The notes under the pieces were generated by a model. The model did no database searches and had not been told where the DNA came from. It worked only from the letters and a program-made list of their open reading frames with translations. Positions 5,128 to 43,560 of a DNA stretch of 44,224 nt are shown here, piece by piece; position 1 is the stretch's first letter, and each line of letters begins with the position of its first letter. The position numbers were made by a program, and so were the translations under genes. This DNA comes from a virus, in IMG/VR virus record IMGVR_UViG_3300032267_000432, positions 1 through 44,224 of that record. One strand, 5' to 3'.

Positions 5128-6053
5128 CCATAGAGGAAATGGAAGACACACTCGAAAGGTTAGGTATTGAAGTTGTCTCTACTAGAGGTTCCGAAATCCA
5201 AGGTTATTGTCCAGCACACGTTGAGCGTACGGGCCACGAAGACCGTAACCCGTCGTGGTGGATTAACTCAGACACAGGTGCTCATATCTGTTTTTCATGC
5301 CACTTCAAAGGCGGACTGTTGTCCTTGGTTTCCTATATTCAAAAGTGGGACTTCGATAAATCTAAAGAGTGGCTTGAAGATGGAACAACAAATCTTAGTG
5401 CTGCATTACAAAAAGCAGTAAAGCCTAAAAAAATATTTGAAGAGTTAACTTATATAACTGAGTCTATGCTTGCTGCGTTTGGTACTCCACCAGATGACGC
5501 ATTAAAAGCAAGAGGTTTAACAGCATCAACAGCAGCTGAGTATGAGGTGCTGTGGGATAACAGACACAGTAATTGGATTACCGTTATTCGCGACCCATAC
5601 ACACACAAGTTATTGGGGTGGCAGGAGAAGGGCCACAAGTCTAGGTTTTTTAGAAATCAACCCACAGGTGTGCAGAAAAGTAATTCCCTATTTGGTTTTA
5701 AACAATACACAGGCGGAGACATGATTGTTGTTGAGTCGCCGTTAGATGTTGTTCGCTTAGCGTCTGTAGGGATTAAAGGTGGGGTTAGTACCTACGGTTC
5801 AATAGTATCTATGCAACAGTTTAATGTTATTAGAGGAGCCGATAGGGTTATCTTTGCTATGGACAATGATACGTCTGGGCGTGAGTCGTCCGTAAACCTT
5901 TTAATCCTTTGTCAAGAGTATGGCAAGGAAGCTTGGTTTTTTAATTATGAGCAGACCGAAATGAAAGATGTTGGCGGAATGAGCAAAGCCGAGATACAGT
6001 ACGGCTTAGAGAAGGCTCGTCACATGGTTCATGGAAAGAAGGCGCTTCGATGA
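5124..6053 (+). CDS. DNA primase (CHC2 zinc finger plus Toprim)
   Basis: A 309-residue protein. A CHC2-type zinc finger occupies about residues 28-66 (GYCPAH, then ICFSCHFKGG), which recognises template DNA. A Toprim fold follows, with the conserved glutamate in VVESPLDVV (about 202-210) and the acidic pair in FAMDNDTSGR (about 245-254), the metal-binding residues for primer synthesis. It is shorter than bacterial DnaG (about 580 residues) and lacks the C-terminal helicase-binding domain, as in many phage primases. It lies directly after the DnaB-type gene. Confidence 0.9.
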   Translation: MTIEEMEDTLERLGIEVVSTRGSEIQGYCPAHVERTGHEDRNPSWWINSDTGAHICFSCHFKGGLLSLVSYIQKWDFDKSKEWLEDGTTNLSAALQKAVKPKKIFEELTYITESMLAAFGTPPDDALKARGLTASTAAEYEVLWDNRHSNWITVIRDPYTHKLLGWQEKGHKSRFFRNQPTGVQKSNSLFGFKQYTGGDMIVVESPLDVVRLASVGIKGGVSTYGSIVSMQQFNVIRGADRVIFAMDNDTSGRESSVNLLILCQEYGKEAWFFNYEQTEMKDVGGMSKAEIQYGLEKARHMVHGKKALR

Positions 6054-6592
6054 TTATTGGACTTACAGGTTATGCACAGTCTGGCAAAGACTCTGTTGCT
6101 GATATCCTTGTTAAAAACTATGGTTATACACGCATAGCTTTTGCAGACCCTATTCGCAAACTTCTTTATGAGATGAACCCTATAGTTAAAGATGGTGGGT
6201 ATAGGGTCCAACCAGTTGTTGATAGTTACGGTTGGGATGTTGCCAAGACTGCTTTCCCAGAAATTCGCACTATGCTACAGAGTCTAGGTGTCGGCGCTCG
6301 TAAAACTTTTGGTGATATGTTTTGGGTAAAGCAAGCATTAAATGAACTTCAGTTGTTTGGAGAAGTTAACTATGTTATTACGGATGTTAGGTATCCAAAC
6401 GAAGCCAAGGCTATTAGAGACTACGACAACTCACAGATTTGGCGCATAAAGCGCAGTGGGGTTATCCCAGTAAATGCTCACGCGTCAGAGACTGCCATGG
6501 ATGGTGAAAAGGTTGACCAGATATTTCTTAACAACGGTACCCTTGATGACCTTAAGATTCTTATACAAACTAGAATGAGAGCATACATATGA
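6050..6592 (+). CDS. Deoxynucleoside monophosphate kinase
   Basis: A 180-residue P-loop kinase: GYAQSGKDS at residues 7-15 is the Walker A, and VITDVRYPNEAKAI carries the conserved Asp-Arg region of phage dNMP kinases (T4 gp1 type, PF21448-like fold). These enzymes phosphorylate dNMPs to dNDPs for phage DNA synthesis. The gene overlaps the primase stop by ATGA and sits in the replication operon, consistent with nucleotide supply. Confidence 0.8.
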   Translation: MIIGLTGYAQSGKDSVADILVKNYGYTRIAFADPIRKLLYEMNPIVKDGGYRVQPVVDSYGWDVAKTAFPEIRTMLQSLGVGARKTFGDMFWVKQALNELQLFGEVNYVITDVRYPNEAKAIRDYDNSQIWRIKRSGVIPVNAHASETAMDGEKVDQIFLNNGTLDDLKILIQTRMRAYI

Positions 6593-33492: not shown

Positions 33493-35397
33493 TTATCGTC
33501 TGACGACCTTCATCTGCGACTTCACTAGGTCTTTGGCGATAGCGATAATATCTTTCTCATCATCTACTATCTTAAAGAACTTAGCGCCATGACGATAGCG
33601 GATAATCATTTTCGCGTAGTCCTCGGGGTGATTTTCTTTATACCACTCTAGCCCACCAATAAATACCACCTGTGTTAAGACACCTGCGTTATTCATGCGA
33701 GAGATAATCTGATTATTGAGGTCGTCGCTATCCCACTCGCCGTCGGTGATAATGAAGCATATCTTTATCCCCTTACGGCTTGCGTTAAGGATACGCTCTG
33801 CCTCGATTAAGCCCTTAAAGGGATTAGTGCTACCGCTAGTTTGGCAGAACCTCATCTCATCACTCTTAGCCTTATCGTCTGCTTTATATACGATACGACT
33901 ATCGTGGTTGAACTTATAGACAGTAACCCTGCCGTTGATACGCTCGATACCGCGCTTTAGTATCCACGCCGTTTCCATTGTCTTATGGATACGACCGCCC
34001 ATGCTACCGCTAGTATCTACTAGGATTACCGCTTCAATATCGTTGCTATCGTTGCCTTGTTCCCACCTATCAAATAACTTATCTATGTTATTTATATCAG
34101 CGTTCATGGCTCGACCGACATTGAGGCGACCGCTTTCTACTTCTAGTTGCCATGCAGGGTCGTTATCTATGCGTAGTCGCTCTAACTCCACCGCGAAGCG
34201 TCGAGCGCTTGCGGAAGTAGTCATGCTTACGGACATATTAGAATAGGAAGCGGATTTAACTCCGCTACGCATTTCCTCATTATCCATAATCGCTCTACGG
34301 ACTTCTGCGGTATCGCGCTTCACCACTTCGTTGTTTTGTAGATTAGATAATTGTTGGTTGATAAGGTCTTTAATAGCCTTATCGTCGTCGCTCATCTTAT
34401 CTTGAACTTCTTTAGTAGTGATAGGACTATCACCGCCACCTGCGCCTTCGCTTTGTTGTGCTTCGTCGCTAGGGTTATCATCTAAGGTTTCGCGCTTGGT
34501 TGAACCTTCCATGCGGTCGGCTTTTTCTTGTAGGCGGTCTTGTTCCTTAGCGCTTTCGGCGCGACCTTTTTTCATCATGCTTCGGTCGATATGTCCGTCG
34601 CACTTACCTTCGCCGTTCGTAGGCATAATGGGTGGTGGCGTGTCCTCATCTGTTCCCATGTATTTAGAGAACTCTGCGATAAGCCTTTTAGCGCGGTCAT
34701 AATCTTTGGGGAAAGATAATGTCCGATACTCATGGATAATATCCGCTAAGGTTATCGCTAGCGCTTGCCCGAAGTTTGTGGCGAAGCGTGTAGCAATTTC
34801 TTGTCGGATATTTATATCAAGGTATTTTCTACCTGTGATAAGGATAAATAGGGAAGCCCACTCGCTACTGTCGCCCTTTAATATATATTCAAGGGTTGAA
34901 GCCTCTAGGAAAGGTTGCGTTGCAGGATACTTTGCTACCAATAGTCGTTCGATACGACTATCCTCTAGGATATTTAAGCAACGCTTATACTTATTTTGTA
35001 TAACCCATTGACCTAACTCGCTATTGGCGCGTGGCGTGTATTGGATATGTCCGACCTCATGGTAGTTGAACCCATGAAGGCTAACGATAGTGTTATCGTC
35101 AATATCCTCTAATAGTGTGGCGTTGAACACGATAGCCTTGCCGTCGTTGTATGCGGTGGTATCTAGGTTGGGGTCGTCGTCTATCTTAACCTCTACCTTG
35201 TCGCCTGTGATAATACTATCGGCGCGTGAGTAGATAACACCCACGCTCGATAGCGCCTCTTTGTGTGCTTGATAGGCTTCTTGCTTGGCTTCAATATCAA
35301 CGCCATATTCCATAACGCCTAAGTCGCTATTCCATGACGCACTTTGATATATCTCGTTCATAAGCCTATCTAGGCTATCTTGCTCGTTACGCCACAC
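33493..35397 (-). CDS. VWA-domain protein with HExxH motif (CobT/MoxR-partner-like)
   Basis: GTG start at 35397; 634 residues. HEVGH at about 113-117 is a zinc-protease-like HExxH motif, with LEDSRIE about 30 residues later as a possible third ligand. The acidic and basic middle is low-complexity. The C-terminal VWA domain has the MIDAS motif DTSGS at about 460-464 and ITDGEWDS at about 550. It follows the AAA+ ATPase with one base between, the typical MoxR-VWA or CobS-CobT pair. It may serve as a chaperone or metal-insertion partner. Confidence 0.75.
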   Translation of the reverse strand: MWRNEQDSLDRLMNEIYQSASWNSDLGVMEYGVDIEAKQEAYQAHKEALSSVGVIYSRADSIITGDKVEVKIDDDPNLDTTAYNDGKAIVFNATLLEDIDDNTIVSLHGFNYHEVGHIQYTPRANSELGQWVIQNKYKRCLNILEDSRIERLLVAKYPATQPFLEASTLEYILKGDSSEWASLFILITGRKYLDINIRQEIATRFATNFGQALAITLADIIHEYRTLSFPKDYDRAKRLIAEFSKYMGTDEDTPPPIMPTNGEGKCDGHIDRSMMKKGRAESAKEQDRLQEKADRMEGSTKRETLDDNPSDEAQQSEGAGGGDSPITTKEVQDKMSDDDKAIKDLINQQLSNLQNNEVVKRDTAEVRRAIMDNEEMRSGVKSASYSNMSVSMTTSASARRFAVELERLRIDNDPAWQLEVESGRLNVGRAMNADINNIDKLFDRWEQGNDSNDIEAVILVDTSGSMGGRIHKTMETAWILKRGIERINGRVTVYKFNHDSRIVYKADDKAKSDEMRFCQTSGSTNPFKGLIEAERILNASRKGIKICFIITDGEWDSDDLNNQIISRMNNAGVLTQVVFIGGLEWYKENHPEDYAKMIIRYRHGAKFFKIVDDEKDIIAIAKDLVKSQMKVVRR

Positions 35398-35398
35398 T

Positions 35399-36868
35399 TT
35401 AGATACCTACGCTTGGTGAGTAGGAAGTAATAGGGATATTCATAACGGAAGTGTCGCTAATCTTATCCTCTAGTGTTTCTGTAACGGCTTCATCTGTTTT
35501 AATAGAAAGAACCGCTAAGCCTAACTCCTCTGCGATATTGTCGCGGTGAGTATTGACTACTAGCCTTACTGCTGACCTTTCCTCATCACCCTCGAACGAG
35601 TTAATGTAGTTGTAGGTAGCGAACTCCATGCCGAACGCTTTGGCGTTGGTAATGAAGGCGACTAGCGAGCGTGTCGATACTGGCGTAGCGAGTGTGCCCT
35701 TGTTGAACTCGGCGCGTAGTTGGTTTGCCATTTCCACTAGCGACTTATTCTTTAGTAACTTCTGTTCAATAGGCTTATCGTATGGGAACGATAGTCTTAC
35801 TGCGAAGCGGTCGGCGAGTGCCTGATTAAGTGGGCGAGTGCCACGATAGTCGGGGTTCATGTCGCCCATGATTAGTAGGTCGGGGTGCGCCTTGATTACT
35901 TCTCCACCATTTTCCATTAGTTGTATCTCACGACGATAATCTAATAAAGAAAAGATAAAGGTGAGAAAGCGCTCGGGTGCGAAGTTAATCTCGTTGAACA
36001 ATAGAACACCGCCGTTACGGACTATCTCTGTAACCGCGCCGTCTTGCCAACGGAAGTGTCCGTCGGGAGTTGGTATCCAACGACCGACTAGGTGCGAAGC
36101 CTCTAGCCCGATATGGCAAGCGACATTGAAGTAACGCATACCGCGAGCGCTAGCATAAGCCTGTGCGCTCATAGTCTTACCGCTTCCTGCATGACCTTCG
36201 ATAAGGATATTCATGGAGTTGGCTAGTGCGTGGTCATATACCTCGAAGTCGGTAAGGTTATCAACGACCTTGCGGTTGATATAGGTCTGCGCCCACTTTT
36301 TGTCGGGAACGCTCACCATAGCATTTACGAGCGATAGGCTTGTTTCGTTGGTTGGTCGAACCTCGATAACCTTATTAGTGGTCGTTGCTACTTCCACTAT
36401 CTTTGCTTCCGCGATAGGCGTATCTGCACCCTTAAAGATAGGCTTAATAGATACACCCTGATTACGGCGTTTGTCCGTAATGTAATCATTGAGGCTATTG
36501 TCGCCAATTTCTAGGCGAGCGATAAGACTACCTGCAACCTCATTGTGGTTGCTGATAACCTCATCATTGACCGCTTCTGCGGTTTCTAGTGCATATAGCG
36601 CCTTGATACCGATATTGGTAATCTGTCCTAGTTTCATCATGTCGCGGTCGCGGTCGCTGATAACGACGGCGCATACTTCGTGTGAGATAGGAGTGCTTGG
36701 GAGTTGTGCTAGTGCTACCTGCTTCCATGCCTGACCTCTGCCCTTCATGCCGTTCGATACGCGGTGGTAGATATATACCTCGGTATCGTCGGATAGGATA
36801 AGTGTCTGTGCCTGTGCAGGTAGTCCTTCGAGTTGGTCGTCGGATACGACCATTAGTGCTAAGGACAT
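35399..36868 (-). CDS. MoxR/CobS-like AAA+ ATPase
   Basis: A 489-residue protein with AAGGGT upstream. The first 190 residues have no recognised domain. The AAA+ core has Walker A EGHAGSGKT (about 224-232), Walker B GVLLFNEIN (about 287-295), sensor-like MGDMNPDYRGTRPL (about 334-347) and ADRF (352-355). The IGLEASHLVGRW segment and the flow of motifs fit the MoxR and CobS group. The partner VWA gene is directly downstream. Phage CobS-like genes are known from other phages, mostly without a proven function. Confidence 0.8.
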   Translation of the reverse strand: MSLALMVVSDDQLEGLPAQAQTLILSDDTEVYIYHRVSNGMKGRGQAWKQVALAQLPSTPISHEVCAVVISDRDRDMMKLGQITNIGIKALYALETAEAVNDEVISNHNEVAGSLIARLEIGDNSLNDYITDKRRNQGVSIKPIFKGADTPIAEAKIVEVATTTNKVIEVRPTNETSLSLVNAMVSVPDKKWAQTYINRKVVDNLTDFEVYDHALANSMNILIEGHAGSGKTMSAQAYASARGMRYFNVACHIGLEASHLVGRWIPTPDGHFRWQDGAVTEIVRNGGVLLFNEINFAPERFLTFIFSLLDYRREIQLMENGGEVIKAHPDLLIMGDMNPDYRGTRPLNQALADRFAVRLSFPYDKPIEQKLLKNKSLVEMANQLRAEFNKGTLATPVSTRSLVAFITNAKAFGMEFATYNYINSFEGDEERSAVRLVVNTHRDNIAEELGLAVLSIKTDEAVTETLEDKISDTSVMNIPITSYSPSVGI

Positions 36869-36957
36869 CTGTGTAACCCTTCTTAGTCGCCATTATTGGC
36901 TTAGTTCCTATCTAAGTCTATTTCCGTATTTACTGCAAGGTGGCAGGGCATATATTT

Positions 36958-36996
36958 GATTACATTTTGATAACGATTATTGGGTAGTTATCCACA
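36958..36996 (-). promoter_or_regulatory. DnaA-box promoter module 1
   Basis: On the + strand: GATTACATTTTGATAACGAT, 10 bases, then TTATCCACA (36988-36996). On the - strand this reads TGTGGATAA, a spacer, then CGTTATC and a GTAATC block. It lies about 90 bases upstream of the AAA+ start and matches the other six modules in layout and in 39-base length. Confidence 0.65.
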
Positions 36997-37299
36997 ACCT
37001 GCTGAACAACCTATGAACAACCTTCTTATGCCTCTCTGTGAAAAATCGGCGCGGTAATAGGGTTATCTCTTGTTATATAGAGAGAGATATAGGGAAGGGA
37101 TAGGACTACTGCTCTCTCTGCTCTCTCTGCTTCTTATCATATAGCCGATAGGGCTACCCTGTCGTAAGTCTGGCTGTGCGCCCGATAAGCCTATCGGCTC
37201 TCTCGGCAGTAGCCTAAACTTCCGAACTTACTCTCATCTCTCTCGGCTTTCAAGCCGACACGCCGTATCTCTCATGTGATAAGCGCCACACGCCGTAGG

Positions 37300-37415
37300 G
37301 TTTGTGTTGGCTATAACTTCGTTATAGCCAATATTGCTATAAATACAAAGTATTTATAGCAATAGGGGTTTCAAGGGGATTCCCCTAGGGTGGGTGGGTG
37401 GGATTCAACACAAAC
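37300..37415. repeat. Compound inverted repeat with GTTTGTGTTG ends
   Basis: GTTTGTGTTG (37300-37309) pairs with CAACACAAAC (37406-37415). Inside are two more perfect hairpins: TTGGCTATAAC with GTTATAGCCAA (37307-37331) and ATTGCTATAAATAC with GTATTTATAGCAAT (37333-37363). The pairing of the outer ends matches the other intergenic repeats. Confidence 0.75.
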
Positions 37416-37429
37416 ATTCGGGCATGAAA

Positions 37430-37460
37430 TAAGCCTACCGCCCATGCAACGGTAGGCTTA
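37430..37460 (-). terminator. Terminator hairpin of the 37496 unit
   Basis: TAAGCCTACCG (37430-37440) pairs with CGGTAGGCTTA (37450-37460). On the - strand it is followed by TTTCATGCCC. It ends the four-gene unit 38896-37496. Confidence 0.75.
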
Positions 37461-37495
37461 CCTCTCTTATCGCCAAAGGGGAAGGGATAAGGTTG

Positions 37496-38017
37496 TTAGC
37501 AGATTTGGAATCCACCGCTATCGCGGAGAAACTCTGCAAACTCTCGTATATTGTCCTCTGTTAGTGGGTAATGACTAGCAAAGGGTTCTGTTTTTCCGAA
37601 ACCGCGACACCCATTACATGTGCCATGCGTTCTTCCTACCAAGATAGCAATATCTTCGGTCAGTTCTTTGGTTGGCATACCACCCTCAACGCCTATCTTA
37701 TCTTCTCTGATACCTGAACCTTCGCAAATACGGCAGGTATCCCATTCTAGTTGGGCTATCTCCATATCTCGTTCCTTGATATATGCGAGCGCCTCACCGC
37801 TTTCTAATTTTAGAAGCAACAATAGGCTTAGCGCCTGTGCTTCCTCTGCGGTCTTTAGCCCATCTCCGTCGTTAGTGTGCCCATGTGGCACTCTCGCCTC
37901 TAGAGTGCTATCTACTTCACAGCAGTAATCCCATAGTGGTCGCCACCACCATACATTATTACGGAAATACTCACCGCGCTCGCTAGTTGGAGCGATACCA
38001 TATACATCCATTCCCAT
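37496..38017 (-). CDS. DnaJ-type zinc finger protein
   Basis: A 173-residue protein with AGGAG upstream. It starts GMDVYGIAPTSERGEYF, a start seen in phage and bacterial proteins of unknown role. The C-terminal half has CRICEGSG and CNGCRGFGK, the repeated CxxCxGxG zinc motifs of DnaJ-type proteins. No J domain is present, so it is a stand-alone zinc adaptor. Confidence 0.65.
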   Translation of the reverse strand: MGMDVYGIAPTSERGEYFRNNVWWWRPLWDYCCEVDSTLEARVPHGHTNDGDGLKTAEEAQALSLLLLLKLESGEALAYIKERDMEIAQLEWDTCRICEGSGIREDKIGVEGGMPTKELTEDIAILVGRTHGTCNGCRGFGKTEPFASHYPLTEDNIREFAEFLRDSGGFQIC

Positions 38018-38026
38018 AGTTGTCTC

Positions 38027-38176
38027 CTAGTCTTGGTGTTGGAAACGAATATAGTTGTCGTCTCCGTCGTCTTGTAGGTTAGTATAAATAACCAGTTGTC
38101 CGTCGTCTAGCGCCTGAATATCATAATCAGGACATATCTGCACTAGCGCGTTTCTGAACTCGTCTCCTTTTATCAC
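38027..38176 (-). CDS. Small acidic protein (49 aa)
   Basis: GTG start at 38176, overlapping the previous stop as GTGA; 49 residues beginning (V)IKGDEFRNALVQ. Acidic with beta segments (GQLVIYTNLQDDGDD). No family recognised. Tight coupling to both neighbours makes it likely real. Confidence 0.55.
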   Translation of the reverse strand: MIKGDEFRNALVQICPDYDIQALDDGQLVIYTNLQDDGDDNYIRFQHQD

Positions 38177-38400
38177 TTTGCCACCTCTATCATCATTGTT
38201 GTCCAGCCCTCATTACATTTCTCCATAACAGAGGTAAGACTATCGGTGATAACCTCTGCGCCAGCCTCGGCTAACGCCTCGTTAGGCACATTTGAGGTCG
38301 CATACTCTAGATACTTGTGTTCCTCTATACAGATATTGAAGTTGATAGCGAATGGTATCTCTACCATTTTTACGCCGTTGATAACCTTAGTCGTCGTCAT
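38173..38400 (-). CDS. Uncharacterised protein (75 aa)
   Basis: A 75-residue protein with IPFAINFNICIEEHKYLE and EVITDSLTSVMEKCNEG. Possibly a small beta-alpha protein; unknown function. It overlaps both neighbours (its ATG lies inside the preceding gene, 14 bases of overlap). Confidence 0.55.
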   Translation of the reverse strand: MTTTKVINGVKMVEIPFAINFNICIEEHKYLEYATSNVPNEALAEAGAEVITDSLTSVMEKCNEGWTTMMIEVAK

Positions 38401-38896
38401 TGTCCTGTTCTCCCTTTAGTAGTGTGCGGATTTGTTCATCTTGTTCCTCGTCCATAATCATATATGGGTCAAACTTGCCGAACTTCTTGGCGAACGCATT
38501 AGGACGAAGCACTAGGCTGATGTCCTCGGGTAGGTCTATATCATAAACCGCACTAACCTTACCAGCCACGCCCAATAGGCTTAGTAGTGGTTGGAACGCA
38601 CCCATACCCCAAGCGGTGTGGATAGCGATAGATAGTGCTGATAGGTCGTCGTCGCTAGGTTCGTTTTCCTCACTTAGCGGTTCTAACGCGGTGTTGGCGA
38701 GCGCATTGACGAGTTTCATCTGAAACTCCTCTTTCTCCTTGAATACTTGGCACATAATCGCGCTCTTTAGTCTGCCGTCTGATAGCCCTAGTGTTCCTTG
38801 CGGTAGCCTAGGATTATCTTCTTCTTCATCTTGTAGATGTATTGCGGATATGATTTCCGAAAAGCGATACTTTCGCTCATCTCTCGTCATAGTCAT
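38387..38896 (-). CDS. Uncharacterised helical protein (169 aa)
   Basis: A 169-residue protein with a good AAGGAG ribosome binding site. Charged N-terminus, a central hydrophobic part (AWGMGAFQPLLSLLGVAGKVS) and an acidic C-terminus (DEEQDEQIRTLLKGEQDNDDD, split in reality by loops). Unknown family. First gene of its unit. Confidence 0.55.
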   Translation of the reverse strand: MTMTRDERKYRFSEIISAIHLQDEEEDNPRLPQGTLGLSDGRLKSAIMCQVFKEKEEFQMKLVNALANTALEPLSEENEPSDDDLSALSIAIHTAWGMGAFQPLLSLLGVAGKVSAVYDIDLPEDISLVLRPNAFAKKFGKFDPYMIMDEEQDEQIRTLLKGEQDNDDD

Positions 38897-38968
38897 AGGT
38901 ATATCTCCTTATCCCTTTGGTGCGGATACTAATTTACCCTATCTCTTACATATAGGGAACACTCTCAC

Positions 38969-39007
38969 GATTACATTTGTATAACGATTTCTCGTAGGTT
39001 ATCCACA
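38969..39007 (-). promoter_or_regulatory. DnaA-box promoter module 2
   Basis: GATTACATTTGTATAACGAT, then 10 bases and TTATCCACA (38999-39007). Same 39-base layout as module 1. It lies about 73 bases upstream of the start at 38896. Confidence 0.68.
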
Positions 39008-39013
39008 GGCAGA

Positions 39014-39096
39014 GTTTGTGTTGGGCTTGCTTAGCGCTTTATGGCTACGCCATAAAGCATATAAAGCAGTAATAGCTAAGCAAGCCCAACACAAAC
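39014..39096. repeat. Long intergenic inverted repeat A
   Basis: A perfect 22-bp outer stem: the left arm starts GTTTGTGTTGGGCTTGC (39014-39035) and the right arm ends GCAAGCCCAACACAAAC (39075-39096). The loop region has a second hairpin, GCTTTATGGC with GCCATAAAGC (39036-39058). It lies between promoter module 2 and the terminator of the next unit. Confidence 0.85.
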
Positions 39097-39116
39097 AATA
39101 GTCTTAGCGCAAAGAG

Positions 39117-39150
39117 AAGCCCCCTGCCACACGTCCATGGCAGGGGGCTT
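39117..39150 (-). terminator. Terminator of the 39167 gene
   Basis: AAGCCCCCTGCCA (39117-39129) pairs with TGGCAGGGGGCTT (39138-39150), 13 bp. On the - strand CTCTTTGCGC follows. A strong GC-rich stem, so termination or transcript-end protection is likely. Confidence 0.8.
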
Positions 39151-39166
39151 ATTAGTAGAGGGGCTA

Positions 39167-39661
39167 CTAATCCTCGTTTTCTTCGGCGCTGACCTCAATG
39201 TTGTCGCGCAGGATACCGCTGAAGTCGACGTAGTAACTGTCGTCTGTGACTGTAGCGGAAGCGTCCTCCCCAAGGGCGCTGACTGTAAAGTTGACCTCGA
39301 TGTCGGAGAAGTCAAGGTCTTCAGTAACCTTATCGCAGGCGTCGTCCTCATCATTTGCCTCGATGTTTTCGACGAAGAGAATACTGTCGCCGAATAGGGT
39401 TACTGTTACATTGTATGTAACTGCAATTTGTGATACATGTGTCCAACGATTTTCGTCGGCTATTTTGTTGTAAAGTTCAACGGCGTAATCCTTGGACATG
39501 TTGCCATGACCAATTTCGCGCTTGAATACAGTAATAAGGCTATCCTGTATCTGTCCCTCTACTCGTGCGGTGACATTCTCAACGCACTGCTTTTCCCAAA
39601 CTATCTTCAGTTCGGTAACGTCACTCTCACCATAGAGAGTAACTCCGTCTTGGATAATCAC
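39167..39661 (-). CDS. Uncharacterised acidic protein (164 aa)
   Basis: GTG start at 39661 with GGGG upstream; 164 residues, the only gene of its unit. It has an N-terminal strand-rich part, a helical centre (FKREIGHGNMSKDYAVELY) and a beta-rich acidic C-terminus (NFTVSALGEDASATVT). No family recognised. Confidence 0.6.
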   Translation of the reverse strand: MIIQDGVTLYGESDVTELKIVWEKQCVENVTARVEGQIQDSLITVFKREIGHGNMSKDYAVELYNKIADENRWTHVSQIAVTYNVTVTLFGDSILFVENIEANDEDDACDKVTEDLDFSDIEVNFTVSALGEDASATVTDDSYYVDFSGILRDNIEVSAEENED

Positions 39662-39737
39662 TTTATCCCCTCTTCTCTGTAGGTATTTCCTACATGTCCT
39701 AATCTAATAGTAAGTAGTCTCTCGTGCAAACCAATAC

Positions 39738-39776
39738 GGTAAATTTTTGATAACGTTTCCAGGGAAGTTATCCACC
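39738..39776 (-). promoter_or_regulatory. DnaA-box promoter module 3
   Basis: GGTAAATTTTTGATAACGTT, then TTATCCACC (39768-39776), one mismatch from the consensus box. 39-base layout kept. About 77 bases upstream of the start at 39661. Confidence 0.6.
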
Positions 39777-39786
39777 GGCTGCCAGA

Positions 39787-39869
39787 GTTTGTGTTGGGCT
39801 ATCTGGCTATCAACTAATACATTAATTGATAGAAAAGTTTCATTGCCAGCCAGATAGCCCAACACAAAC
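39787..39869. repeat. Long intergenic inverted repeat B
   Basis: A 22-bp stem: left arm GTTTGTGTTGGGCTATCTGG plus CT (39787-39808), right arm ending CCCAACACAAAC (39848-39869). The loop contains ATCAACTAAT and ATTAATTGAT, another near-perfect hairpin. It lies between module 3 and the next unit's terminator. Confidence 0.85.
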
Positions 39870-39872
39870 AAA

Positions 39873-39906
39873 GATAGCCCTAGCGGTGTTCTGCGCTAGG
39901 GCTATC
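39873..39906 (-). terminator. Terminator of the 39933 gene
   Basis: GATAGCCCTAGCG (39873-39885) pairs with CGCTAGGGCTATC (39894-39906), 13 bp. On the - strand it is followed by TTTGTTTGTGTT, which is also the start of repeat B. Confidence 0.8.
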
Positions 39907-39932
39907 GGGTATTTCTCCGTGGGGGGAGAAAT

Positions 39933-40328
39933 TTACAGGAGCGAGGTGTCTATAGACTCGCTGATTGCTTTTAGTCGTCGTGCATAGAGACGCGCTAGAG
40001 ACTTATACTTATCGCGCTCTGCGATAAGGTCATCTATCGTGCGTTGGACTTCACCGACGGCAGCTTCACGGCGCTCGGACTTAGTCATCTTGCGGACTAG
40101 TTTAGGCTTACGCTTTCCGTCCTTACCATTGTGGATACCCACATGGATAGACATCTGCGGTTGTGTAGATTGCATGACGCCACAGGTGTTACAACCATAA
40201 TTGGTTATAACCTCATTGGCTTCAGTTAGCCATGTTAGTTTCGACATGGACGTAAAGAACTTGCCTGCCCGCATTGGGTTAGGCACAGTATCAGTAATTA
40301 CGAGAATTGCATTTGGCATTGAGAACAC
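39933..40328 (-). CDS. Uncharacterised basic protein with CxxC (131 aa)
   Basis: Probable GTG start at 40328 with GGTGAT upstream; a second start at ATG 40319 is possible; 131 residues. GCNTCGVMQ carries a C-x2-C, the middle is basic (KDGKRKPKLVRKMTKSERR) and the end is a helix (DDLIAERDKYKSLARLYARRL). It may bind nucleic acid. Single gene in its unit. Confidence 0.55.
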   Translation of the reverse strand: MFSMPNAILVITDTVPNPMRAGKFFTSMSKLTWLTEANEVITNYGCNTCGVMQSTQPQMSIHVGIHNGKDGKRKPKLVRKMTKSERREAAVGEVQRTIDDLIAERDKYKSLARLYARRLKAISESIDTSLL

Positions 40329-40474
40329 TTATATCACCCCCCATCTTATTAGTTACACTCTCACCTTATTGACGTTCAATAAGAGGTTATTCATGATTGC
40401 TCCTCTTCTATGAACAGTATCTCTGCTCATGTAGTTACTCTAACATTGAGTGACGCAAATATCTTCCCCCATTT

Positions 40475-40513
40475 GGTTACAGCTTTATAACGATTCCAGG
40501 AGACTTATCCACA
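40475..40513 (-). promoter_or_regulatory. DnaA-box promoter module 4
   Basis: GGTTACAGCTTTATAACGAT, then TTATCCACA (40505-40513). 39 bases as in modules 1-3. Leader to the 40328 start is about 147 bases, longer than in the others. Confidence 0.65.
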
Positions 40514-40519
40514 GGCAAT

Positions 40520-40597
40520 GTTTGTGCTGGGGCTTTATATATGGGCAGGAAAGACAACTACCCTGCCCATAAGCACATATAAAGCCCCAGCACAAAC
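40520..40597. repeat. Long intergenic inverted repeat C
   Basis: A 21-bp stem: left arm GTTTGTGCTGGGGCTTTATA plus T (40520-40540), right arm ending GCCCCAGCACAAAC (40577-40597). Inside, ATGGGCAGG (40541-40549) pairs with CCTGCCCAT (40562-40570). Here the end sequence reads GCTGG rather than GTTGG, and both arms changed together. Confidence 0.85.
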
Positions 40598-40601
40598 AAA
40601 T

Positions 40602-40628
40602 GAGCCCCCAGCTTTTGGCTGGGGGCTC
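40602..40628 (-). terminator. Terminator of the DUF932 gene
   Basis: GAGCCCCCAGC (40602-40612) pairs with GCTGGGGGCTC (40618-40628) around TTTTG. On the - strand it is followed by ATTTGTTTGTGCTG. Confidence 0.82.
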
Positions 40629-40642
40629 GCTTGCTTATCCTA

Positions 40643-41650
40643 CTAGGCGCTCGCGAACTCGCGGACGGCAGAGAGAATACGTGCCTTCTCGGCATTGACC
40701 ATTGCATCAAAGCCAGATGCAGCAGCGACGATTGCCTCGCCATTGGCGGTGCGTGATGGGCGGTAGTAATCTAGACGCTCGGTCATAGCGTTTAGAGCAC
40801 CCCATGCGGTGCCACGGATACCATCTTGAGTTGGTGCCTTGAAATACAATTCATCAAGGACGTCCATCTTTTGCTGGTGCTTGGTAGCAGTGCCTTTTGG
40901 CGCATTATCGTCCAAAGGATAGATTGACTTTACAAGGTCGCTCCATTGCTTGGCAGATACCTCGGTCTCAAAGAGAGCCTTAGCCATGGTTTCGAATTCA
41001 TCCATGTGTGCGAATGTTAGCCCTAGGACTCGGCGAGCCTCGGCAACGCGACCCTCAACTTTCAAAGTGTGGCGCACTTTGAATGATTGCTTGGTTGAGC
41101 GTAGCGCCATGTTGAGTGTGTTTTGGCAGACAACACGGACGGGTGTGATGGATGCTTGAACACTTGCAGAGCCATCATGTGAAGAGTGGACTAGCAGATA
41201 AGTCGTAGTCTTATCGGCGATGCCATCTGCATCAAGAATAAATTCGCGTGGCACGACCAAAGAGCCAAAGACAACTTTGCCATCTTTGATTGAGCCAGCA
41301 GACTCCCATGATGCGCCACCATCAAGGATGTTATCGCCAAAGTCGAAGAGGTCTTCGTTTTGGAATACGCGGTAACGGTCTCCTACAACGGCGAGCACGT
41401 CGGTGCCTTGGTCTGCAGGATTGGTGCGGACAACATAATTCATGTTGCCCTTGGTGCGGTATCCATCTGGATACACGCAAGGCTCAAGGCGGACATTCCA
41501 GTCCTTGAGCATAGCGCCCTTGAGCATGTCGGCGGTTGATATATCCGCATCCACGTCAAAGGTGGCATTGGCTAAGCCATGCCACGCTGGGGCGCCACGC
41601 AGGGCAAATGCAACTTGCCCATTGTCGAATTCTTCTAGGTTATGAGCCAT
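40643..41650 (-). CDS. DUF932 family protein
   Basis: A 335-residue protein with AAAGGGGAG upstream. The start MAHNLEEFDNGQVAFALRG, the AWHGLA segment, VVGDRYRVFQNEDLFDF, VVCQNTLNMAL and the C-terminal YYRPSRTANGE-like part match DUF932 (TIGR03299 phage/plasmid-related) proteins. These are common in phages and plasmids; their function is unknown. It is the only gene in its unit. Confidence 0.85.
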   Translation of the reverse strand: MAHNLEEFDNGQVAFALRGAPAWHGLANATFDVDADISTADMLKGAMLKDWNVRLEPCVYPDGYRTKGNMNYVVRTNPADQGTDVLAVVGDRYRVFQNEDLFDFGDNILDGGASWESAGSIKDGKVVFGSLVVPREFILDADGIADKTTTYLLVHSSHDGSASVQASITPVRVVCQNTLNMALRSTKQSFKVRHTLKVEGRVAEARRVLGLTFAHMDEFETMAKALFETEVSAKQWSDLVKSIYPLDDNAPKGTATKHQQKMDVLDELYFKAPTQDGIRGTAWGALNAMTERLDYYRPSRTANGEAIVAAASGFDAMVNAEKARILSAVREFASA

Positions 41651-41736
41651 GAGAATTCTCCCCTTTCGATAAGACTAGGCGGGTGCCTAGTAAGCCCATC
41701 TTATGCGAGCGCCAGCATTATTGTCTACTCTCGGTT

Positions 41737-41778
41737 GGTTACGTTTCTATAACAATCTCATCCACACCCTGTGGATAA
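41737..41778 (-). promoter_or_regulatory. DnaA-box promoter module 5 (two opposed boxes)
   Basis: GGTTACGTTTCTATAACAAT, then TCATCCACA (41758-41766) nine bases closer than in the other modules, and a perfect box on the opposite strand, TGTGGATAA (41770-41778). It is the only exception to the 39-base spacing. About 87 bases upstream of the start at 41650. Confidence 0.6.
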
Positions 41779-41790
41779 CCCTGTGGAAAA

Positions 41791-41875
41791 GTTTGTGTTG
41801 GGGCTTATGGGGCACGGGATATAGCTGCTTTAGCGTTGCTATATCCAGCCCCAATCCATAAGCCCCAACACAAAC
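41791..41875. repeat. Long intergenic inverted repeat D
   Basis: A 20-bp stem: GTTTGTGTTGGGGCTTATGG (41791-41810) with CCATAAGCCCCAACACAAAC (41856-41875). The inner GGATATAGC (41817-41825) pairs with GCTATATCC (41838-41846). Between module 5 and the next terminator. Confidence 0.85.
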
Positions 41876-41878
41876 AAA

Positions 41879-41906
41879 TCAGCCCCAGCCAATTGGCTGG
41901 GGCTGA
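41879..41906 (-). terminator. Terminator of the 41919 gene
   Basis: A perfect 28-base palindrome: TCAGCCCCAGCCAA next to TTGGCTGGGGCTGA. On the - strand ATTTGTTTGTGTTGG follows. A strong stem without a classic T-run. Confidence 0.8.
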
Positions 41907-41918
41907 GTCGTAGGGGAT

Positions 41919-42221
41919 TTATGCAACTAACCTTTCGGCTAGCGCACGACGGATAAACGTTTGCGTTTTGCTGGTAGTAGGTGAGAACTTTTGTTCTACG
42001 ATATACCAACCATTTGCGCCAAACCATGCGATAGGCGTAGCGTAGGAGAAGACTACATACGCGCCAGGCTTGAAGTCTGCCACTAGCTTGTTGTATTCAT
42101 CACCTAACCTTCCCGCGCTGGGTGTGTAGTTGTAATACTTACCGCTTAGGCTTGACGCTTCAAACGGCTCGCGGTTTGGTATGCGCTCCATCGCTACTTT
42201 TTGGCTAACGTGAAGTTTCAT
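41919..42221 (-). CDS. Uncharacterised protein (100 aa)
   Basis: The ATG at 42221 (MKLHVSQKVAMERIP) is taken because it follows its neighbour closely; the frame is open further upstream without a ribosome binding site. The 100 residues include strands GAYVVFSYATPIAWFG and NGWYIVEQKFSP, and a basic end (FIRRALAERLVA). Unknown function. Confidence 0.55.
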   Translation of the reverse strand: MKLHVSQKVAMERIPNREPFEASSLSGKYYNYTPSAGRLGDEYNKLVADFKPGAYVVFSYATPIAWFGANGWYIVEQKFSPTTSKTQTFIRRALAERLVA

Positions 42222-42441
42222 TGTATTTGACCTCCTCGCGGTATTGTTCTGCAAGATAGTCTGCGTGTGCGTCTGCGTAATACGAATTCGTATCGTGCTC
42301 CCAGCGCTCGCGCTCGTCTGCGCTTCCTTCACTATAACCACGGAACCAGCCCGCACGATAAGCGAAGTATCCAGCAATACACGCGACGAGTATATCCACG
42401 AGTAAGTTGAAGCCGTTATAGAAGATGATTTCATTAGGCAT
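42205..42441 (-). CDS. Small membrane protein (78 aa)
   Basis: A 78-residue protein with one membrane segment near the N-terminus (about 11-29, LLVDILVACIAGYFAYRAG) and a polar, acidic C-terminal part. It overlaps the following gene by 17 bases and starts inside the end of the preceding one. Unknown function. Confidence 0.55.
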   Translation of the reverse strand: MPNEIIFYNGFNLLVDILVACIAGYFAYRAGWFRGYSEGSADERERWEHDTNSYYADAHADYLAEQYREEVKYNETSR

Positions 42442-42574
42442 TTACCTTCCTCGCTTCCTCGTTTGCACATGGATAGCAGATTTTTTCTATTCTATCCATG
42501 CAACCTAGTAGAAACGCATCTACGCCACTAAATACGATTCCTTCATCTGTTCCACATATTGAACACTTGTTCAT
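42434..42574 (-). CDS. Zinc ribbon protein (46 aa)
   Basis: Encodes 46 residues from ATG 42574 (GGGG upstream): CSICGTDE near the start and CYPCANEEARK near the end, with a helical middle. Overlaps the next gene by eight bases (ATGCCTAATG). First gene of its unit. Confidence 0.6.
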   Translation of the reverse strand: MNKCSICGTDEGIVFSGVDAFLLGCMDRIEKICYPCANEEARKVNA

Positions 42575-42655
42575 TTCTAACCCCTTTACTATAAACGCCC
42601 CTTGCGCTTATGAGATAAGACTATTACACCGCGCCAGCAATACGCAACGCGACAC

Positions 42656-42694
42656 GATTACTTTTCTATAACGTTTTTACTATAGTTATCCACA
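42656..42694 (-). promoter_or_regulatory. DnaA-box promoter module 6
   Basis: GATTACTTTTCTATAACGTT, then TTATCCACA (42686-42694). 39 bases. About 82 bases upstream of the start at 42574. Confidence 0.65.
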
Positions 42695-42740
42695 GGCTCT
42701 CTCTGTAGTAGTGGGTTCGTTTGCCTTACCCTAAGCCAAT

Positions 42741-42812
42741 GTTTGTGTTGGCCCACCCTCCCCATTCCCCTACGGGGAATCGAGAGAGGCGAGGGGGGAA
42801 GTCCTCGCCTCT
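42741..42812 (-). terminator. Half repeat and terminator of the 42817 gene
   Basis: GTTTGTGTTGG (42741-42751) is the left repeat end without its partner arm. To its right are two hairpins: ATTCCCC-TAC-GGGGAAT (42764-42780) and AGAGGCGAGG with CCTCGCCTCT (42785-42812). The second is next to the stop of the 42817 gene and probably terminates it. Confidence 0.65.
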
Positions 42813-42816
42813 AACC

Positions 42817-43074
42817 TTATCCTTCCATTGACTTGATTAGTTCTAAGTTTTCTAAAGCTTCCTCGGGATACTCGGTCACTCGCTCGACATAGTGGCAGTC
42901 TACGTGTGAGCCGTCGCAACGGCTACAGTCTGAGCCCTTCACTATGTAACTTGTGCCTTGGATAACTACCTCGTGACTGAAACCTTCTAGGTTGCCGTCC
43001 TTGTTGATTGCATACTCGTGCGCTTGCTCGCTGGTAAACGCCGCGTTGATTAGGTCAATGAATAGCGTGTTCAT
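42817..43074 (-). CDS. Uncharacterised protein with Cys/His cluster (85 aa)
   Basis: An 85-residue protein: KGSDCSRCDGSHVDCHYVER holds three Cys and two His in close spacing, a likely metal site, followed by an acidic helix. It overlaps its neighbour by ATGA. Unknown family. Confidence 0.55.
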   Translation of the reverse strand: MNTLFIDLINAAFTSEQAHEYAINKDGNLEGFSHEVVIQGTSYIVKGSDCSRCDGSHVDCHYVERVTEYPEEALENLELIKSMEG

Positions 43075-43262
43075 TTAGTAAACGCCTCGGTTACTGTTTC
43101 GAGTGATGTCTTGATGGCGTCGCGGTATCCCGCTTGGTATTGTGCAACTGCTACGCTTGAGAGTATCCCTTGGATAGCCTCGCGCTTGTCTGCTGGGACG
43201 TGTGATACTACTACTGCAATAGCCTCGGCTACTACTTGGCTAACATTGTCGTTTTGTGACAT
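43071..43262 (-). CDS. Small helical protein (63 aa)
   Basis: A 63-residue helical protein with AAGGGG upstream (QVVAEAIAVVVSHVPAD, then VAVAQYQAGYRDAIKTSLE). Unknown. First gene of the last leftward unit, next to the divergent control region. Confidence 0.55.
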   Translation of the reverse strand: MSQNDNVSQVVAEAIAVVVSHVPADKREAIQGILSSVAVAQYQAGYRDAIKTSLETVTEAFTK

Positions 43263-43560
43263 TTATTTCCCCTTGTTAGGTAGTGAACCCCTTGTTCACT
43301 AAGAGAACACTATTAGATAGGGCTACCACACGCAAGCCTAGTCGGTCTCGTTTCTATAACAATTTATCCCCAGTTATCCACACCCCCCCAGGGTTAGACC
43401 TGTGGATAACTAAGGAAGCCACCAGGGCGCAGGAGTAGGTACTTACTTGGGGGGCAGACAGTAGCCTTAAAAATTTTTAATGAGGTCGGGGAAATATGAG
43501 GCAGTAGCCCTTCTGCGCGTTTGCCCAGTTTAATTTAGATTGGGACCTTACCCTATGCTT
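43263..43560. other. Divergent control region, possible origin
   Basis: 298 bases between leftward and rightward genes. It holds module 7, three DnaA-box-like sites within 46 bases (43364-43372, 43374-43382, 43401-43409), the perfect AT palindrome TTAAAAATTTTTAA (43467-43480) and repeated CAGTAGCC words near 43459 and 43502. This is the best candidate for a replication start or master switch in the window. Confidence 0.45.
43344..43382 (-). promoter_or_regulatory. DnaA-box promoter module 7
   Basis: GGTCTCGTTTCTATAACAAT, then TTATCCCCA (43364-43372) and TTATCCACA (43374-43382). The 39-base distance is kept to the second box. About 82 bases upstream of the start at 43262. Confidence 0.65.

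Follow-up and report, generated by a model that had tools for sequence, protein, structure and literature searches.

The stretch analysed here in full (the window) is a viral record of 44,224 bases with a GC content of 44.6%, which encodes its own DNA polymerase A, DnaB-like helicase, DnaC-like loader and primase. A near-identity search of named phages, with positions 20.0-44.2 kb of the window as query, returned no match. Between 36.9 and 43.4 kb, seven leftward units (- strand) carry a common module, six copies of which are 39 bp long, exactly as an earlier note on this DNA had described. In the direction of the genes the module reads nTGTGGATAAC, then about 12 bases, then CGTTATnnAAAnGTAAnC, the layout common to the six 39-bp copies being TGTGGATAAC, about 12 bp and CGTTATnnAAAnGTAAnC. 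The exact DnaA box TTATCCACA occurs seven times in the window, in intergenic positions that all fall within 36988-43409 and are spread across six of the seven units, whereas 100 first-order Markov simulations of the window gave 0.39 on average and never more than 3. When up to one mismatch was allowed, 29 boxes were found against 10.9 +/- 3.3 expected, a number reached by none of 100 shuffles. In the third copy the box is inexact, with the sequence TTATCCACC, and the fifth has TCATCCACA as its same-orientation box, accompanied by an exact inverted one.

Organization of the seven leftward units

All modules, genes and candidate promoters of the seven units lie on the - strand, and promoters were assigned with a simple sigma70 consensus score. 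The module of unit 1 (36958..36996) holds its DnaA box at 36988-36996, together with GTTAT/GTAAT repeats, and precedes genes for an AAA ATPase (35399-36868) and a VWA protein (33493-35397); the candidate -10, TAGACT (36915-36920), is paired with a weak -35 and has the same offset, 76, in the orthologous units of loci L078 and L079. Unit 2 (38969..39007) has an exact box at 38999-39007, a candidate -10 TAAATT at 38931-38936 and a gene at 38387-38896, and an orthologue of this unit was found in G007. The unit 3 module (39738..39776), with the one-mismatch box TTATCCACC at 39768-39776, is followed by a candidate promoter with a -35 of TTGCAC (39724-39729) and a -10 of TAGATT (39701-39706) at a spacing of 17, and then by a gene at 39167-39661; its orthologue in G007 keeps an intact box. 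Unit 4 (40475..40513) carries an exact box at 40505-40513, a candidate -10 TAGAGT at 40437-40442 and a gene at 39933-40328. Units 1, 2 and 4 each have a -10 candidate without a good -35.

The module of unit 5 (41737..41790) consists of TCATCCACA at 41758-41766, the exact inverted box at 41770-41778 and TTTTCCACA at 41782-41790; its candidate promoter (-35 TAGACA, 41722-41727; -10 TAAGAT, 41698-41703) lies ahead of a DUF932 gene at 40643-41650. Unit 6 (42656..42694), with an exact box at 42686-42694, serves small genes that run from 42574 downward and has a candidate promoter with a -35 of TTGCGT (42642-42647) and a -10 of TAGTCT (42618-42623), spaced by 18. In unit 7 (43344..43409) the exact box at 43374-43382 is joined by an extra TTATCCCCA at 43364-43372 and an exact inverted box at 43401-43409; the candidate promoter (-35 TTGCGT, 43330-43335; -10 TAGTGT, 43307-43312; spacing 17) precedes genes at 43071-43262 and 42817-43074. 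This last module is also the divergent region ahead of the rightward genes, and a similar double-box arrangement was seen in L077 and L079.

Several further features were observed in the window. A long inverted repeat (39014..39096) with the conserved ends GTTTGTGTTGG / CCAACACAAAC adjoins the box, similar repeats lie at 39787-39869, 40519-40598 and 41791-41875, and a looser pair was found at 37289-37426. The first four share their outer ends and differ in their inner arms, which are nevertheless complementary; they are flanked by a terminator-like hairpin on one side and the box on the other, and look like insulating hairpins. The sequence CAACACAAAC also occurs upstream of boxes in L082 and L083. 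Hairpins with a CAAGGGG-type loop were seen near predicted transcription starts (43280-43302 and 42590-42615), with counterparts in L077-L085, and in several units the stem of such a 5' end stem-loop, as judged by eye, starts near the predicted transcription start. Elsewhere, the protein encoded at 26728-28194 matches the phage queuine tRNA-ribosyltransferase family (phrog_887) and could be a DNA-modifying enzyme of the DpdA type.

The box and its surroundings in related viruses

The DUF932 gene of unit 5 was used to find relatives, first at 13 and then at 80 viral loci. In a search of related phages, as the earlier note had proposed, TTATCCACA occurred 266 times in 81 DUF932 neighbourhoods, whereas 60 letter-permuted 9-mers averaged 11 occurrences and reached 35 at most. 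By a crude call of open reading frames, 128 of the 220 distinct boxes in these neighbourhoods lie outside ORFs, against 47.7 expected. Close relatives (clade 1) retain the module, which in them contains the 11-bp direct repeat GTTAT-N6-GTTAT, while in the next clade (clade 2; 69-72% protein identity) CTGTGGATAACT is retained at most units and its partner is GTGAACA/ATGAACA. In both clades the columns of the box vary little or not at all, in part through selection, since units were located via the box, and the conserved stretch extends beyond the 9-mer to approximately CCTGTGGATAACT; the repeats downstream of the box differ, being GTTAT in clade 1 and TGAACA in clade 2. In more distant relatives the boxes are multiplied at 14- or 21-bp spacing, or inverted. 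Because the 266 copies over 81 loci so far exceed the permuted controls, the 9-mer TTATCCACA was taken as the constant part of the module, with spacing, orientation and partner as the variable parts. A constant 9-mer in varying surroundings would be expected of a site for a protein that reads DnaA boxes, and not of a -35 element.

The exchange of the partner repeat beside the box was seen in individual loci, L082-L085 differing from L077-L081 (GTTAT, TGAACA) and L086 having CTGAG (2771), with an 11-bp period. The swap may point to a second regulator that is diverging. When the partner repeats were scored as weak DnaA boxes, those of clade 1 reached 7.14 against 6.65 (sd 0.18) and those of clade 2 showed no resemblance, a likeness, slight in one clade and absent in the other, that was judged unconvincing. 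Arrays of boxes were also recorded: a cluster of six at 13537-13672 of L177, in which the first five follow one another at intervals of exactly 21 bp; 11 boxes on a single strand within 6.7 of the 80 kb of G011; and 86 stretches with tandem boxes at 14-bp spacing, found by pattern search.

Phages without this arrangement served as controls. The Streptomyces phages Elmer and BoomerJR possess the same DUF932 gene and unit layout without a promoter-linked DnaA box; in the intergenic regions examined (L114 and L115), which belong to a gene block of the same kind, the TTG-17-TAGACT promoters are preceded by GCCGCCCCGG..AAAAGATCTTG. Two further phages with DUF932, one of Microbacterium and one of Gordonia, had no box in the stretch read. 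A search of named phages with the box string matches many records, including T5-like phages; in one of these, SSP1 (L324), DnaA boxes are clustered in two intergenic gaps, 2614-2695 and 6009-6090, in a manner more origin-like than unit-like. As these clusters occupy two gaps rather than providing one box per unit, SSP1 was not counted as having the same arrangement.

Position of the box relative to candidate promoters

The earlier note had taken the element to be linked to transcription, which agrees with the present results, but had further proposed that the box overlaps the -35 and that the TTATA-type hexamer behind it is the -10. The spacing TGTGGA-17-TTATAN in the window copies favors such a reading. 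However, across the non-redundant units of the two clades, TAnnnT occurs at the expected place in just 2 of 14 (neither with TTG) and 0 of 26, respectively, and better promoters lie further downstream. The TTATA itself mostly forms no TAnnnT hexamer, and comparison with relatives identifies it as half of the 11-bp direct repeat GTTAT-N6-GTTAT. In other clades, moreover, the box is flipped or moved, which is impossible for a -35. As a sigma70-like -35/-10 pair is found about 25-75 bp downstream in orthologous and paralogous units, it was concluded that the box is not the -35; this reading was rejected on the comparative positions of TAnnnT and the orientation flips, and we consider it highly improbable.

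The candidate promoters themselves keep a defined distance from the box. The best promoter scores downstream of boxes exceed those of shuffles (z 3.3 and 7.3). In clade 1, TAnnnT is present at an offset of 66-71 from the box start in 11 of 14 non-redundant units, seven of which also have TTG at a spacing of 16-18 bp, and in clade 2 it occurs in 21 of 26 units, where it falls into one of three windows, near 48, 58 and 68, at intervals of about 10 bp. For forward boxes the offset to the -10 is periodic, with a best fit of 10.5 bp (R 0.44, p ~3e-4, n=41, the p value being uncorrected for relatedness or for the several periods scanned); these -10 positions derive from the simple consensus score, and related units are not fully independent. 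Reversed boxes showed no helical phase to the -10 (n=17), and several clade-1 units, including unit 1 of the window, place the -10 at offset 75-76, half a turn out of phase. The module lies upstream of the candidate promoters and some 100 bp or more ahead of the translation starts, with the box at a predicted -55 to -85 or so, resembling the site of an upstream regulator. Both the clade-1 offsets and the 10.5-bp phase of the forward boxes fit regulation of a core promoter from this position.

Host DnaA as the candidate regulator

An actinobacterial MAG was reached via DUF932, and its order of small genomes was taken as the candidate host. In 30 genomes of this order, 90 of the 124 TTNTCCACA sites around dnaA are TTATCCACA, which strengthens the DnaA-box reading of an element conserved in so many phages; a host with a clearly different box, which the earlier note had named as a ground for abandoning that reading, is thus not what was found. 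A G precedes 69% of the host dnaA-region sites, as in most phage boxes, and the candidate host genomes (1.0-2.2 Mb) contain about 5-21 exact boxes each. The tRNA-Asn of the phage shares 87-88% identity with members of the order, with 1 of 149 genomes of the phylum passing a strict cut, relatives of the DUF932 and AAA proteins occur in actinophages among others, and the GC content of cultured Planktophila phages (44.8%; PMC10202952) is near that of the window. The ribonucleotide reductase offered no host link, being unmatched among 61 genomes from the order and having weak matches (<=34% identity) elsewhere in the phylum. From lineage, GC content and tRNA we infer that the host belongs to this actinobacterial order, which its genome size and source suggest to be the Nanopelagicales, and these viruses appear to infect tiny freshwater actinobacteria. 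A DnaA-like protein encoded by the phages was considered and rejected, as the DNA-binding domain IV of DnaA (DnaA_C, PF08299) was absent from ten phage records, some of which may be fragments, while bacterial genomes and controls were positive. DnaA is therefore likely to be supplied by the host.

The leftward units are probably transcribed separately and regulated, most likely activated, by host DnaA bound upstream of their candidate promoters. Each would form its own transcription unit, comprising an upstream terminator and hairpin, the box with its partner repeats at 11-bp spacing, a core promoter of the sigma70 type with its -35 and -10 some 25-55 and 48-76 bp, respectively, downstream of where the box starts, and then a 5' hairpin followed by between one and three small genes. 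The DnaA of the host, bound at about -55 to -85 and on one helix face relative to RNA polymerase, would control initiation, most likely as an activator of class I type. All units of the block would respond jointly to free DnaA, and therefore to the replication state of the host, and would lose DnaA while phage copies multiply. A more extended version, in which a phage-wide regulon is wired to DnaA, switched on at entry when free DnaA is plentiful and shut off by itself as phage genomes soak it up, the same titration starving the host oriC, is conceivable but rather doubtful.

The boxes might instead act mainly as a sponge that titrates DnaA from oriC, or as phage replication origins, with their promoter position secondary. 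The seven perfect boxes in 44 kb, about as many as a candidate host genome contains in full (about 5-21), would suit this, as would the three boxes clustered at the divergent region of unit 7, the six of L177 with five at 21-bp spacing, and the phage's own DnaB-like helicase, DnaC-like loader and primase. The window and its close relatives, however, mostly have a single box in each unit, set at a constant distance from the candidate promoter, partner repeats and helical phase are needless for a sponge, and in five records the cumulative GC skew does not change direction at the boxes; this explanation is unlikely. A single phage origin of the oriC type was rejected, as the boxes are dispersed over seven units and the skew does not turn there. 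That another phage or host protein reads the same sequence, with DnaA uninvolved, is in keeping with a conserved stretch (~CCTGTGGATAACT) longer than the 9-mer, with clade-specific partner repeats that are unconvincing as DnaA sites, and with the analogous upstream elements of very different sequence in Streptomyces phages with the same gene. Yet the shared core, whatever the clade, orientation or spacing, matches the candidate host's DnaA box exactly, sites at host dnaA likewise favor the additional G ahead of TTATCCACA, and no DnaA-like DNA-binding domain was found in the ten phage records, and we regard this possibility as distinctly unlikely.

The proposed regulation by host DnaA has partial parallels. 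DnaA is already known as an activator and repressor, and in the E. coli DnaA regulon (dnaA, nrdAB) strong and weak boxes likewise lie near sigma70 promoters, with activation or repression set by DnaA level and nucleotide; the genes there are chromosomal, whereas here they are viral and have clade-specific partner repeats. Phage lambda is a replicon on which transcription at ori is stimulated by the DnaA of its host (Szalewska-Palasz 1998, cited in PMC8203912), an effect proposed to act through RNA polymerase beta; that account describes a single, origin-tied site, in contrast to the standard module found here at seven to eleven accessory units. Phages of Alphaproteobacteria have established sites for host CtrA (PMC9437464), which are similarly intergenic sites for a host cell-cycle regulator amid small unknown genes, gained and lost between relatives, but the regulator and host phylum differ, and the same authors' DnaA scan of those phages was negative, with no asymmetry. 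Cluster K actinophages (PMC3203893) have a short repeat (SAS/ESAS) at many genes, about half with upstream inverted repeats. It is, however, a 13-bp GGGATAGGAGCCC at translation starts, and the module was not assigned to it, being a DnaA box of different sequence, about 100 bp or more upstream and ahead of candidate promoters, with no GGGATAGGAGCCC at the translation start. Elmer and BoomerJR come close in their unit layout of terminator, repeated element and TTG-17-TAGACT promoter, and differ in the element itself. Our literature search, in which coverage of subscription papers was sparse, yielded no account of actinophage promoters with DnaA boxes. The earlier statement that no description was known is nevertheless too strong for the kind of system, given lambda and CtrA.

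The presence of DnaA sites upstream of promoters suggests that a viral gene block is tied to the host replication machinery. If this is true, many viruses of abundant freshwater actinobacteria would directly read the host replication initiator, and phage sensing of the host cell cycle would widen from alphaproteobacterial CtrA to DnaA, which is present in nearly all bacteria. It would also offer a testable route by which a phage may time a gene block and interfere with host replication, and the module would provide a sequence signature with which such phages can be recognised in metagenomes.
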